Below the pieces are notes generated by a model. That model did no database searches and was not told the DNA's origin. It worked only from the letters and a program-made list of their open reading frames with translations. 64,000 bases of DNA. It comes from Methanooceanicella nereidis. Lineage in GTDB: Archaea; Halobacteriota; Methanocellia; Methanocellales; Methanocellaceae. Position numbers and translations under genes: made by a program. How positions within the stretch are numbered: position 1 is the stretch's first letter; each line of letters begins with the position of its first letter. The stretch covers positions 124,001-188,000 of the forward strand of contig NZ_PGCK01000007.1 in NCBI RefSeq assembly GCF_021023085.1, in the 5' to 3' direction. Shown here piece by piece: positions 51,730-55,650 of the stretch.

Positions 51730-51737
51730 TTTATATA
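51730..51737 (+). promoter_or_regulatory. TATA box of the tetR gene
   Basis: TTTATATA, preceded by AAATG. The first operator copy begins 14 bp downstream (51744). The same arrangement, AAACG-TTTATATA, recurs at 52753 before the efflux operon. Confidence 0.65.
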
Positions 51738-51743
51738 TTGTAA

Positions 51744-51778
51744 AATAAACATTGGTTAGTTAATAACCAGCTGTTATA
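51744..51778 (+). promoter_or_regulatory. Two TetR operator copies at the tetR promoter
   Basis: Two 17-bp sites with an 18-bp period: AATAAA-CATTG-GTTAGT (51744-51760) and AATAAC-CAGCT-GTTATA (51762-51778). Both fit AATAAC-N5-GTTATT, the consensus of the three sites at 52768-52820. They cover the expected transcription start, which predicts autorepression. Confidence 0.7.
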
Positions 51779-51808
51779 ATCTTATTACAGGTCATCACGG
51801 GGAAAACG

Positions 51809-52537
51809 ATGTCGATCACGGACAGAAAGGAACGGGAAAAAGAGCAGAGAAGGAATGCCATTATCGATGCTGCGGAGAAGATGTTCTTCTCCAGGGGATA
51901 TGATAACGTCTCCATGGATGACATAGCCAGAGCAGTTGAACTCAATAAGGCTACACTCTACCTTTATTTTAAGAACAAGGAAGCATTATTTTTCGCTGTC
52001 GTGCTGCGTGGTGCCAGGATACTTAACTCTCTTGTAAAGGAAAACATAAAAACATGTAAGACCGGTTATGAAAAACTCTGGGAAACAGGGCACGCATACT
52101 TTACGTTCTTTAAAAAGTATCCCGACTATAACCAGGTCCAGAATTATTTCTATTCCGGAAGATTTGACCTGTCAAACGTAATGGATATGCAGGTAGATGC
52201 TATCGATGGTGGAAAACGTTATGCCTTACATGAGTATACTGTTTTCGATTTCCCGAAAATAACTGACGTCGAGGATGCGAAAGAGATCATAATGCTGCAT
52301 CATGAAATATTTGTCATCATGTGCAATTCTATAAAAGAAGGCATTGATGAAGGTATGTTCAGGCCGGATCTGGATCCGGCAGAAGCTGCCATTATATTCA
52401 CAATGGTCCTTGAGAGCGTACCCAATATGCGCCCGGACCTAAAGTCAGTGCTTGACAGCAGGGGAATAGATCGATCTAAATTCTCAAAAGATATCGGGGA
52501 CTTCATCGGTAATATGCTCAAGATAAAAAATACTTGA
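51809..52537 (+). CDS. TetR/AcrR-family transcriptional repressor
   Basis: 242 residues. The N-terminal HTH (~14-60: RRNAIIDAAEKMFFSRGYDN, MDDIARAVELNKATLYLYF, NKEALFF) is canonical TetR. The C-terminal ligand-binding domain is helical with many aromatic residues (YFTFFKKYPDYNQVQNYFY), suggesting a hydrophobic ligand. It stands directly upstream of an efflux operon in the same direction. Its own promoter and that of the efflux operon share arrayed 17-bp sites, so it very probably represses both and is relieved by a transported compound. ATG start after GGGGAAAACG. Confidence 0.92.
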   Translation: MSITDRKEREKEQRRNAIIDAAEKMFFSRGYDNVSMDDIARAVELNKATLYLYFKNKEALFFAVVLRGARILNSLVKENIKTCKTGYEKLWETGHAYFTFFKKYPDYNQVQNYFYSGRFDLSNVMDMQVDAIDGGKRYALHEYTVFDFPKITDVEDAKEIIMLHHEIFVIMCNSIKEGIDEGMFRPDLDPAEAAIIFTMVLESVPNMRPDLKSVLDSRGIDRSKFSKDIGDFIGNMLKIKNT

Positions 52538-52752
52538 ACAGACGACATTAAAGATATTCTCATTAATGTTGATCGAATACTGGTACTGACATTTTTAATC
52601 GATCCATATACCGGGCATTTTATGGGGAGTATAAACCTTACAATAAAAAGCGGATAATGTAGACAACTTATCCTATATGCAATATCATTAAGGTTATTTT
52701 TCTAAATCCATAGTATCTTGGTTATCTATCGATATTTTTACAAAACCAAACG

Positions 52753-52760
52753 TTTATATA
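52753..52760 (+). promoter_or_regulatory. TATA box of the efflux operon
   Basis: TTTATATA in the context AAACGTTTATATATTT, closely matching the tetR promoter at 51730. The first operator starts 15 bp downstream. Confidence 0.65.
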
Positions 52761-52767
52761 TTTAAAA

Positions 52768-52820
52768 AATAACTATTAGTTATTAAATAACTATTAGTTA
52801 CAAATTAACTACTGGTTATT
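52768..52820 (+). promoter_or_regulatory. Three arrayed TetR operators before the efflux operon
   Basis: Three 17-bp sites at an exact 18-bp period. 52768-52784 (AATAACTA-T-TAGTTATT) is a perfect palindrome. 52786-52802 (AATAACTATTAGTTACA) and 52804-52820 (ATTAACTACTGGTTATT) are close copies. They lie just after the TATA box and over the likely transcription start. The rest of the 402-bp spacer 52538-52939 holds only AT-rich sequence upstream and a ~120-base leader downstream with a 31-codon frame. Confidence 0.75.
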
Positions 52821-52853: not shown

Positions 52854-52949
52854 ATGAAGCCTGTTAACGATCCCCGAAAAGAATGGATATTGCCAGTGAA
52901 TCCTCAAATCGCTGACATTAATTGTAAGGTCAAAGTGGGATGTCTATGA
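52854..52949 (+). CDS. Possible 31-residue leader peptide
   Basis: Runs from ATG at 52854 to TGA at 52949 in the leader of the efflux operon. Its stop overlaps the second Met codon of the flavoprotein gene (ATGA at 52946). Residues begin MKPVNDPRKEW and end KVGCL. AGGCGAT lies 5-11 bases upstream. It could couple translation of the operon or be chance. Confidence 0.25.
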   Translation: MKPVNDPRKEWILPVNPQIADINCKVKVGCL

Positions 52950-53692
52950 AAGTACTTGCTATAAATTCCTGCCCTCAAAAGGATAAGGGTAACACCGCTC
53001 GTTTCCTGGGTCCGTTTCTGGATGGTATGAGAGATGCCGGGGCTGTGGTAGACCTCGTTTATGGCAGAGACCTGATGATATTTCCGTGCTGCGGGAATCT
53101 CAATTGCACTATCAAAACGTCTGTAAAATGTATCCAGTTTGACGATATGGAGTGGTTAAGGCCTAAAATGTGCCAGGCAGATATTCTTGTTTTAGCATCC
53201 CCTCGGTACTGCGATGGTGCCGTAATGCCTGATGGTTTCACCGGGCCTATGAGGGCGCTTTTAGATAAACTAAAAACCCATGAGCAGCCCTGCATAGAGT
53301 TACTGGAAGGCAGTCCCGGACGTATTCCTCGTGAAAATGTTAATCTTAAAAAGATCGTTCTGGTATCGAACCAGGGCTTTTTGGAAATAGATGATCTGGA
53401 TCCCGTATTAACACATGTCAAAGCTTTTTGCATTAATTCCTATCCAGAGCTTTCCGGTACCATATTTCAACCTTACTATGTCTTTTTAAGATGTGGCTTT
53501 GAAGAAGGCACTAGTATACTGGACATACCGGGATCGGCCAGGAATGCCGGCTTCCTGCTCATGCAGGAGATCAAAATGTCAGTAAAGGAAGATAAAATCG
53601 TTAGCCGGGAGCTTAAGCAAGGGGACAATTCCATTCGAACCTCTGTTGTAGGCGAGGAGAGTTTCAACGATAGACAAAAAAGGAGAGGATAA
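52940..53692 (+). CDS. Flavodoxin-fold NAD(P)H-dependent FMN reductase-like protein
   Basis: 250 residues. VLAINSCPQKDKGNTARFLG is the FMN-phosphate loop and LVLASPRYCDGAVMPDGFTG the SP-Y segment of flavodoxin-like reductases. Cysteines occur in PCCGNLNCTIKTSVKCIQ, where iron-sulfur flavoproteins carry their cluster motif, but the spacing (CCx4Cx7C) differs from the compact motif seen in the two paralogues here. The polar C-terminal tail is unusual. First gene of the TetR-controlled operon; the MFS gene begins 2 bp after its stop. Two ATGs (52940 and 52946) are possible starts. Confidence 0.8.
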   Translation: MSMKVLAINSCPQKDKGNTARFLGPFLDGMRDAGAVVDLVYGRDLMIFPCCGNLNCTIKTSVKCIQFDDMEWLRPKMCQADILVLASPRYCDGAVMPDGFTGPMRALLDKLKTHEQPCIELLEGSPGRIPRENVNLKKIVLVSNQGFLEIDDLDPVLTHVKAFCINSYPELSGTIFQPYYVFLRCGFEEGTSILDIPGSARNAGFLLMQEIKMSVKEDKIVSRELKQGDNSIRTSVVGEESFNDRQKRRG

Positions 53693-53693
53693 G

Positions 53694-55118
53694 ATGCAGC
53701 AGTCAGTTCAGATGCAGGAAATTTCTCAGGATACGGTCTATAAGAACAGGTATGTTATTCTGGCTGTGATCCTGATAGGTGTATTGATGGCAGTGCTTGA
53801 CGGTTTCATGATAAGCATAGCACTTCCTACGATCACAATGTTCTTCAACGTTAACGTGGCCCAATCTCAATGGGTCATAACAGGCTATCTGATATCAATG
53901 ACCTGTCTATTCATCGTTTTCGGAAGGGTCTCAGAGTATACCGGTAAGGTAAAATTGTTCATGACGGGGTTCGCTATCTTTACCTTATCCTCCCTGGCTT
54001 GCGGGCTCGCTTCCAGTATTGACCAGTTGATAGCATTCCGTATTATACAGGGTATAGGCGCATCAATGGTCGCAGGCATCAGCGGTGCCATGATCTACCA
54101 CGCTTTCCCCCAAAATGAGATCGGCAGAGCTATGGGATATTATATGGCAACTGTGGCAATAGGCAGCTTAATTGCCCCGGCGCTTGGCGGATTCCTGGTC
54201 GATTCCATGGGCTGGCAGTATATATTCTTTATAAATATACCAATCGGCGTTCTCCTGCTGGCACTTGCTTTTAAATATCTTAAATTACCGGAGATGATTT
54301 CAAAGAGCCTGGAGATCGACTGGATAGGTATGGGAACTCTTATTGTTACAGTGGTCTCGCTGATGTTACTTTGCAGCGAATTCGCGAGCAGCATTAGAAT
54401 AACCACGTCGTCGATCATTTATAGTGTAATATTCGCGGCAGCATTGATCATATTCACATTCCAGGAATCGAGGTGTAAAAAACCGCTGCTCGAACTCTCA
54501 ATATTCAGGAATAAAAGATTCACACTTCCAATATTAAGCATGATGTGCGTGGTCGCAGTTTTTAACATTGGCGCAGTTATCTGGCCGTTCTACTTCCAGG
54601 GCGTCATGGGCTATACTCCGTCTCAGGTAGGATTGTTGTTCATGGTGACCCCTCTAGTAATGATGTTTGCCGGACCTGTATCCGGAAAGCTGTATGATAA
54701 ATACCAGTGGAAGTATACGGCAGGGACAGGGGCGTTCATAGCCGCAATAGCATTCCTTTTGCTTGGTTATGCATTCATGGCGATCGACCTTACTTTTATC
54801 ATTCCGGCTTTCATAATCTGGGGCATAGGATATAGTCTCTTCACAAGCCCGAACAACGCCGAGGTCTTAAGCTCCCTTCCAAGGGAAAAAACCGCCATAG
54901 CATCCAGCGTCTCGTCCACTGCACGTAACCTTGGATCCACTCTCGGCATATCCCTGGCCAGTATTCTTCTAATGTTTTGGCTAGGTATGGCTGGCTATAA
55001 CGGAGTTGTATTATCGGCAGGACAGTCACTGCTCGCGAACTCTATAAGTGTGATCATGATCGCCGGCGGGGTGCTTTGCATATTAGGAGCGGTAACTTCC
55101 GTGTTAAGGAATATTTGA
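53694..55118 (+). CDS. MFS multidrug exporter, DHA2 (14-helix, EmrB/QacA-like)
   Basis: 474 residues with about 14 hydrophobic helices. LDGFMISIALPTI in helix 1, QWVITGYLISM in helix 2, FGRVSEYTGKVKLF (the MFS loop 2-3 motif), RIIQGIGASM in helix 4, and GFLVDSMGWQYIFFINIPIGV in helix 6 are hallmarks of the DHA2 drug:H+ antiporter family. It should pump a toxic amphipathic compound out of the cell. The ATG follows the flavoprotein stop by one base; the McrD-like gene starts 16 bp downstream. Controlled by the upstream TetR through the operator array. Confidence 0.95.
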   Translation: MQQSVQMQEISQDTVYKNRYVILAVILIGVLMAVLDGFMISIALPTITMFFNVNVAQSQWVITGYLISMTCLFIVFGRVSEYTGKVKLFMTGFAIFTLSSLACGLASSIDQLIAFRIIQGIGASMVAGISGAMIYHAFPQNEIGRAMGYYMATVAIGSLIAPALGGFLVDSMGWQYIFFINIPIGVLLLALAFKYLKLPEMISKSLEIDWIGMGTLIVTVVSLMLLCSEFASSIRITTSSIIYSVIFAAALIIFTFQESRCKKPLLELSIFRNKRFTLPILSMMCVVAVFNIGAVIWPFYFQGVMGYTPSQVGLLFMVTPLVMMFAGPVSGKLYDKYQWKYTAGTGAFIAAIAFLLLGYAFMAIDLTFIIPAFIIWGIGYSLFTSPNNAEVLSSLPREKTAIASSVSSTARNLGSTLGISLASILLMFWLGMAGYNGVVLSAGQSLLANSISVIMIAGGVLCILGAVTSVLRNI

Positions 55119-55134
55119 AGGAAGGTGATAATAA

Positions 55135-55650
55135 ATGACGAAGTTCAGAAGACCAATATCGAATATAATGGATGAAAATAAACTGATGCAGATCGAGATA
55201 TTTCCGCAAAGGCTGCTAAATCTTGATACTGCCCAGAAACTGTTGAACGAGCTAAATGTTATCGACGGCATAAACCGGATGGTCGTGTACGGCCCGGGTA
55301 TGCCAAAAGACGATCCTGCTGATCTGCTGGATGGCAAATATTGCGTTCGTGAAAAGAAATATATCTGCATCATGGGTGAAATGGTCGAGCTTACTGTCCA
55401 GGTCGGAAGAATATGGATCGAGGTCCGGGATGGAAGTGTCGTTGAAAAAATACGGGAAGCATGTGTAAAAACCCTTCCATTTCCCTTTGAACTATATGAG
55501 GGCCTTTATTTGCGGACTCAGAAGACTATCACTGATTACGTAAGAAAAGGCGGGGAAGTCGATGACATAGACCTGGGGATGTTCGATCCCGGTAAATGTG
55601 TGCCATGTTGCGAGACATTGCCAGGTAGAAAAGAAAATGATCTGGTATGA
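55135..55650 (+). CDS. mcrD: McrD-family protein in an efflux operon
   Basis: 171 residues of the methyl-coenzyme M reductase operon protein D family. QIEIFPQRLLNLDTAQKLLN, IDGINRMVVYGPGMP, ELTVQVGRIWIEV, PFPFELYEGLYLRTQKTITD and LGMFDPGKC all match the family pattern. McrD normally lies inside the mcr operon and binds methyl-CoM reductase, with a role in assembly or activation. Here no mcr gene is near; it is the last gene of the TetR-controlled flavoprotein-MFS operon, with its own strong ribosome binding site GAAGGTGAT. The C-terminal CVPCCET is an added Cys cluster. Probably a paralogue with a stress-related role. Confidence 0.87.
   Translation: MTKFRRPISNIMDENKLMQIEIFPQRLLNLDTAQKLLNELNVIDGINRMVVYGPGMPKDDPADLLDGKYCVREKKYICIMGEMVELTVQVGRIWIEVRDGSVVEKIREACVKTLPFPFELYEGLYLRTQKTITDYVRKGGEVDDIDLGMFDPGKCVPCCETLPGRKENDLV

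Follow-up and report, generated by a model that had tools for sequence, protein, structure and literature searches.

What reads the evenly spaced palindromes that follow two promoters in Methanooceanicella nereidis, and why are they so regularly placed? The sites lie in a 64,000-nucleotide stretch of contig NZ_PGCK01000007.1 (positions 124,001 to 188,000), which we analysed as a whole and refer to as the window. The host genome (G000) is 3.19 Mb. At the locus, a tetR gene is followed by an operon of FMN reductase-like, DHA2 transporter and mcrD-like genes:

51809 to 52537, + strand: TetR-family repressor gene, 242 aa (Pfam TetR_N); the recognition helix is ELNKATLYLYF, with Ala48.
52940 to 53692, + strand: FMN reductase/flavodoxin-fold gene, the first behind the efflux array (Pfam FMN_red, E 2.6e-9).
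53694 to 55118, + strand: DHA2 (EmrB-type) MFS multidrug efflux transporter gene (TIGR00711, 255.9 bits against a cut-off of 230.2).
55135 to 55650, + strand: second mcrD-like gene, probably the last of the efflux operon (Pfam MCR_D, 3.3e-44; TIGR03260 above cut-off).

The mcrD-like gene stands outside any mcr operon. Each family genome searched has two mcrD copies. In a relative (G001), the extra mcrD comes after the corresponding FMN reductase and array; G003 has an mcrD ≈ 1.7 kb from a TetR gene of the NKAT type. Such a pairing of an inducible McrD with a pump hints that methyl-coenzyme M reductase may be protected or repaired. Within the leader 5' of the efflux genes there is also a short, 31-codon open frame, MKPVNDPRKEWILPVNPQIADINCKVKVGCL (52854 to 52949); its stop overlaps the ATG at 52946, the second candidate start codon of the FMN reductase gene, and the G001 relative has no space for such a frame.

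The two promoters and their cores are as follows:

51730 to 51738, + strand: TATA box of the tetR promoter, TTTATATAT; the first core is 16 bp downstream of the first base of the box.
51746 to 51758, no strand assigned: operator core T1, TAAACATTGGTTA, with one mismatch, in the TAAC half.
51764 to 51776, no strand assigned: operator core T2, TAACCAGCTGTTA, 18 bp past T1 and without a purine before GTTA.
52753 to 52761, + strand: TATA box of the efflux operon, TTTATATAT; the first core is 17 bp downstream of the first base of the box.
52770 to 52782, no strand assigned: operator core E1, TAACTATTAGTTA, perfect.
52788 to 52800, no strand assigned: operator core E2, TAACTATTAGTTA, perfect.
52806 to 52818, no strand assigned: operator core E3, TAACTACTGGTTA, perfect to TAACYN3RGTTA.

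An earlier, sequence-only reading of this DNA had placed two sites after the tetR TATA box and three after the efflux TATA box at exact 18-bp steps, and both the positions and the step were reproduced here. The efflux row reads TAAC-N5-GTTA-N5-TAAC-N5-GTTA-N5-TAAC-N5-GTTA with zero mismatches, its three cores spanning 49 bp in total, and the tetR row reads TAAA-N5-GTTA-N5-TAAC-N5-GTTA. The same reading had all five sites fit AATAAC-N5-GTTATT. As a loose match this holds; the 17-mers at 51744, 51762, 52768, 52786 and 52804 carry 2, 1, 0, 2 and 1 mismatches, respectively, and a perfect fit is limited to a single site. The two TATA boxes, described as lying in near-identical sequence, are embedded in DNA that is similar only (24 of 34 bases match). 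As in palindromic operators of the TetR family, the cores overlap the promoters of the regulator's own gene and of the neighbouring operon, directly after the TATA boxes.

The protein itself is a TetR by sequence and by fold. It has the TetR_N helix-turn-helix (PF00440, E 2.6e-18, 66 bits against a cut-off of 24), and its AlphaFold model (pLDDT 87; residues 130 to 147 are poorly modelled), all-helical with the ligand-binding C-terminal domain of the family, gives the TetR-family proteins KstR2, DarR, FadR and AibR as best PDB matches. A ligand class could not be assigned from these comparisons: all NCBIfam equivalog scores were far below cut-off, and the fold search tied many TetR proteins.

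Sites of this kind might be a chance or low-complexity pattern of AT-rich spacers, and single sites do behave as such. Allowing ≤ 1 mismatch, the whole genome contains 23 of them and the control, a search with the reversed pattern, 17. A lone site therefore carries little meaning. A genome-wide regulon of single sites was dropped, the counts being about control level for all three patterns tried; two lone exact core-like sites, G000:C9:116069 and C6:57095, were likewise set aside as single sites with no TetR within ≈ 4 kb. The arrays, in contrast, exceed chance by far. The four-half-site array (≤ 1 mismatch) has three matches in this genome, at both window promoters only, and none in the control. 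A DNA search that was blind to protein, run on 393 genomes drawn evenly from the phylum with partial coverage, found 45 arrays in 41 genomes against 7 places in the control (totals are hand tallies from tables). For 37 of these arrays, in 35 genomes, a TetR gene of the window's subfamily is no more than 4 kb away; the 8 without one, set against the 7 control places, are about the chance expectation. The consensus, for which scatter at chance frequency had been named as the outcome that would speak against the sequence-only reading, is thus at chance frequency as a single site and well above it as an array. The evenly spaced array is a real, conserved switch design across methane-producing archaea and not a product of chance; that the window sites are a pattern of AT-rich spacers has a practically negligible probability.

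The unit of the array can be read from the relatives, in which only the 13-bp core TAAC-Y-N3-R-GTTA is conserved: T(.99)A(.88)A(.98)C(.94)Y(.99) and its mirror image. Information is 1.0 to 1.9 bits inside this core and ≈ 0.5 bit per position outside, and the outer AAT/ATT flanks are AT-rich, no more. The 17-bp operator proposed at the outset was therefore correctly placed but slightly too long. It could still have been read in the wrong frame, if the true dyad spanned the linker (register TRGTTA-N5-TAACYA). In the window alone this register is appealing, as the linker-centred dyads TAGTTATTAAATAACTA and TGGTTAGTTAATAACCA match the cores in symmetry at both promoters. We dropped it because the linker is 5 or 6 bp in relatives, whereas the N5 within TAAC-N5-GTTA is invariant, and the fall in information outside the 13-bp core also speaks against it. 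A linker-centred dyad is very unlikely: a core constant at 13 bp beside a linker of 5 or 6 bp settles the frame, and the linker-centred dyads are a by-product of even spacing.

Another candidate reader of the sites is an HSR1-like heat-shock regulator of the ArsR type. HSR1 of Archaeoglobus fulgidus is an autoregulator, and its motif, CTAAC-N5-GTTAG, contains the TAAC-N5-GTTA core (PMC9133787); in other genomes, TAAC-N5-GTTA pairs adjoin ArsR-type and CDC48 genes. There is indeed a second class of array, in which TAAC-N5-GTTA cores are separated by a gap of 1 (14-bp step), in 21 places in 18 genomes. Near position 4000 of L193, L194 and L195, arrays of this class, with GTTACTAAC or GTTAGTAAC at the junction, precede an ArsR-type regulator, and a CDC48 AAA ATPase gene stands beside 14-bp-step arrays (Pfam-confirmed in L194). 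From its motif, the class looks like tandem HSR1 sites. These ArsR-side pairs, however, combine the 14-bp step with outer C/G, and no TetR of the subfamily was found in the three loci examined, whereas the window array has an 18-bp step and outer A/T and stands beside a TetR. None of the five window cores has the outer C/G pair of HSR1, which moreover is an ArsR-type protein of a heat-shock operon (PMC9133787), and no ArsR-type gene was found next to the window array. Ownership of the sites by such a regulator is extremely unlikely.

To determine the step, exact core pairs were counted with gaps of 0 to 24 allowed. Gap 5 (step 18) occurred 30 times, gap 6 (step 19) 4 times and gap 23 (step 36) 3 times, and gaps 7, 8, 15 and 18 together gave six (hand tallies); pairs at gap 11, in four places, are one repeat within one genome. 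Since an exact-core pattern is biased to TAAC, we recounted on TetR loci fetched by protein alone, accepting TAAC or TGAC halves. Among the 34 close homologues (E < 1e-30), a core pair was present in 20, at step 18 in 14 and at step 19 in 6, with ≈ 0.05 in shuffled sequence; no array was detected with the TAAC/TGAC pattern in the other 14. Save for the multiples 36 and 38, the remaining steps were near zero, and steps of 16, 17, 20 and 21 bp almost never occur. As expected of a cooperative array with fixed spacing, 18 and 19 prevail among diverged units and in different genera. The step switches between these two values about six times on a tree of 55 TetR proteins, at least four of the switches being forced, and for this reason the pitch was dropped as a lineage marker.

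A constant step does not by itself require contacts. The dimers might bind their cores independently, the 18-bp step being a relic of tandem duplication and the extra sites only raising local occupancy. The E1 and E2 cores are identical, and near-identical tandem units occur in parts of L181 and in L183 (4071 to 4227, G236:C1, Methanosarcina clade), where nine cores stand at exact 18-bp steps, most units are near-identical and several are identical; this array clearly grew by tandem duplication. Duplication followed by few indels could also yield a fixed step. Elsewhere, however, the resemblance of neighbouring units is barely above that of units from separate loci (46% of free positions shared versus 41%, L183 left aside); most arrays are thus not products of recent duplication, and still their step is held at 18 or 19 bp. 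Moreover, the two values interchange several times on the tree, with almost nothing beyond them. Recent duplication as the whole explanation was dropped except for L183 and parts of L181, and independent binding at duplicated sites seems to us unlikely. Most likely, the fixed 18/19-bp pitch reflects contacts between neighbouring dimers, which are probably the simplest reason for a constrained step. An 18-bp step is ≈ 1.7 turns of B-DNA, and neighbouring dimers would thus be rotated by ≈ 100 degrees.

The half-sites vary together with the recognition helix. Numbered on the window TetR protein, Ala48 genes (..NKAT.. or ..SKAA..) have TAAC half-sites, with A 247, G 9, C 6 and T 8 at position 2, and Gly/Ser48 genes have TGAC half-sites, with G 33, A 4 and C 1 at that position. 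None of the 55 genes disagrees with this rule; the protein-fetched loci alone comprise 16 Ala48 and 7 Gly/Ser48 genes (hand count). The tree places two changes behind the match and does not reject one (AU p 0.188), which makes this a weak statistical test of covariation, although one that agrees with structure. By motif and number, the residue of FadRSa that corresponds to methanogen residue 48 is Gly48; this glycine contacts N7 of guanine, and the G48A variant no longer binds (PMC6449355). In DarR, the base contacts are Lys44 and Gly45 (PMC10636190). As far as sequences can tell, the half-site base follows recognition-helix residue 48. L017, the sole array gene with Arg47, has A at half-site position 5 in 7 of 8 cases, and Lys47 genes have C or T; we regard this tracking of position 5 by Arg47 or Lys47 as a lead only.

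The host genome offers an internal comparison. A search of G000 for TRAC-N5-GTYA pairs (≤ 1 mismatch) returned step 18 only at the two window promoters (TAAC) and at C1:340139 (TGAC-type), with 0 in the control, and step 19 only at C3:6679 (TAAC) and C9:70187-70256 (TGAC, four units), with 2 in the control. Each array adjoins a TetR paralogue of its own, at C7:175809 (window), C3:5848, C1:339781 and C9:69801, and these four closest paralogues fill all four combinations of half-site (TAAC or TGAC) and step (18 or 19). They could be taken to form a modular operator code, in which TetR paralogues would polymerise as rows of 2 to 9 dimer units at 18/19-bp pitch and be insulated from each other in one cell by half-site (residue 48) and pitch. 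We put this forward tentatively, as somewhat unlikely in full, and four cases are too few to prove an insulation code.

Three further loci of this genome have palindromes at other steps. Near the gene of a more distant TetR paralogue (L021, G000:C4:214869), TGACAGTATGTCA-like palindromes stand at a 14-bp step. TAAC-N5-GTTA pairs at a 21-bp step (two helical turns) are present at G000:C4:209200-209233 (L191) and G000:C6:128624-128657 (L192), with no TetR of the window's subfamily nearby; one of the two precedes a PadR-type-looking regulator gene, and the other precedes a small membrane protein and then an HTH gene. In the genome G383 (5,751,492 bp), L178 and L179 contain several TetR genes of the subfamily with arrays at 18 and 19 bp, one locus with further TetR pieces, which makes G383 a possible laboratory model.

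Our main reading, with a probability of roughly 0.82, is that the five sites are operators of the TetR encoded at 51809 to 52537, and that dimers bound side by side would block the tetR and efflux promoters until a ligand releases them. Each 13-bp palindromic core would hold one TetR dimer, and the dimers would stack at a centre-to-centre pitch of 18 bp, with two of them on the tetR promoter and three on the efflux promoter. The usual distance from the centre of an archaeal TATA box to the start site is ≈ 26 bp. Where the TATA box is clear (window, L006, L007, L009, L013, L017, L036, L038 and L179), the first core follows the first base of the box by 14 to 17 bp; many arrays in the large Methanosarcina/Methanomicrobiales clade have no evident TATA box upstream. 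Since the array starts just after the TATA box and crosses the expected start, bound dimers should block recruitment or escape of RNA polymerase. They might keep RNA polymerase out while TBP stays partly free, like MDR1 of Archaeoglobus, or alternatively act once TBP and TFB have been recruited, a mode proposed for FadRSa on its own promoter.

Release would be by a ligand, probably a small toxic compound exported by the pump. The weaker two-site array would give partial autoregulation of tetR, and the stronger three-site array tighter control of the operon; the weakness of the tetR sites (the mismatch in T1 and the missing purine in T2) fits mild autoregulation. In relatives, most target genes encode redox flavoproteins or ferredoxins (Methanosarcina, Methanoculleus), LCM-type methyltransferases (L013, L036) or FMN reductase (L006), and from these gene types the theme looks like a response to a compound that is redox-active or toxic. 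The cooperative side-by-side binding of the sequence-only reading gains from the tie of the array to a TetR subfamily, the coverage of both promoters, the half-site that tracks the helix, and the constant step, which favours contacts; cooperativity itself we only infer.

Few archaeal TetR regulators have been characterised so far, and this family spans Methanocella, Methanosarcina and Methanomicrobiales relatives. Because its operators are readable from sequence, target promoters can be predicted ahead of experiment. The rules are testable: Ala48 or Gly48 would pick the TAAC or the TGAC half-site, and paralogues may be kept apart by pitch. Arrays of 2 to 9 sites form a natural series for relating operator number to repression at an archaeal TBP/TFB-dependent promoter. 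In the window, the module joins an efflux pump with a second copy of McrD, which is a chaperone for the enzyme that forms methane.

Finally, we compared the arrays with known systems. The sequence-only reading had taken binding of several dimers side by side to be undescribed in archaea, which does not stand: Ss-LrpB (cited in PMC2995911) and FadRSa (PMC6449355) are precedents. Ss-LrpB is described as occupying, cooperatively, three sites of its own control region (cited in PMC2995911). As proposed for the methanogen TetR, Ss-LrpB and other archaeal Lrp proteins occupy regularly spaced sites at their own promoters with several dimers and in a cooperative manner; they belong to another protein family and their sites are two or three full turns apart on one face, as opposed to ≈ 1.7 turns in the methanogens (PMC2995911). 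FadRSa of Sulfolobus acidocaldarius is, like the window protein, an archaeal TetR with palindromes near promoters and more than one dimer per operator, and it binds as a cooperative dimer of dimers (PMC6449355). Unlike the methanogen arrays, it places at most two dimers, overlapping in a QacR-like manner on different sides of one operator, and forms no tandem row at 18 or 19 bp (PMC6449355).

Among bacterial proteins, QacR and DarR also place two TetR dimers on an operator, and QacR acts near the start site; their palindromes overlap, whereas the methanogen cores are separate (cited in PMC9210681; PMC10636190). The 5- to 6-bp linkers in relatives set the arrays apart from overlapping repeats of the QacR kind, and weaker overlapping contacts may exist at the window operators. 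EthR of Mycobacterium tuberculosis resembles the arrangement proposed for the arrays in multimerising cooperatively on a repeat-containing 55-bp operator of similar length; it differs in binding as an octamer to direct and inverted repeats in a bacterium, and the citing passage describes no family-wide constant pitch (cited in PMC9210681). SCO7222 of Streptomyces has three perfect palindromes in one intergenic region and forms three protein–DNA complexes, and the portion of the report at hand mentions neither a fixed step nor its conservation (PMC3511530). We found no description of a TetR array at a non-integral 18/19-bp pitch in the open-licence literature. Multi-site cooperative repressors are already known in bacteria and archaea, so that the methanogen arrays are ordinary in principle; what is unusual in them is their regularity, copy number, spread and predictive value.
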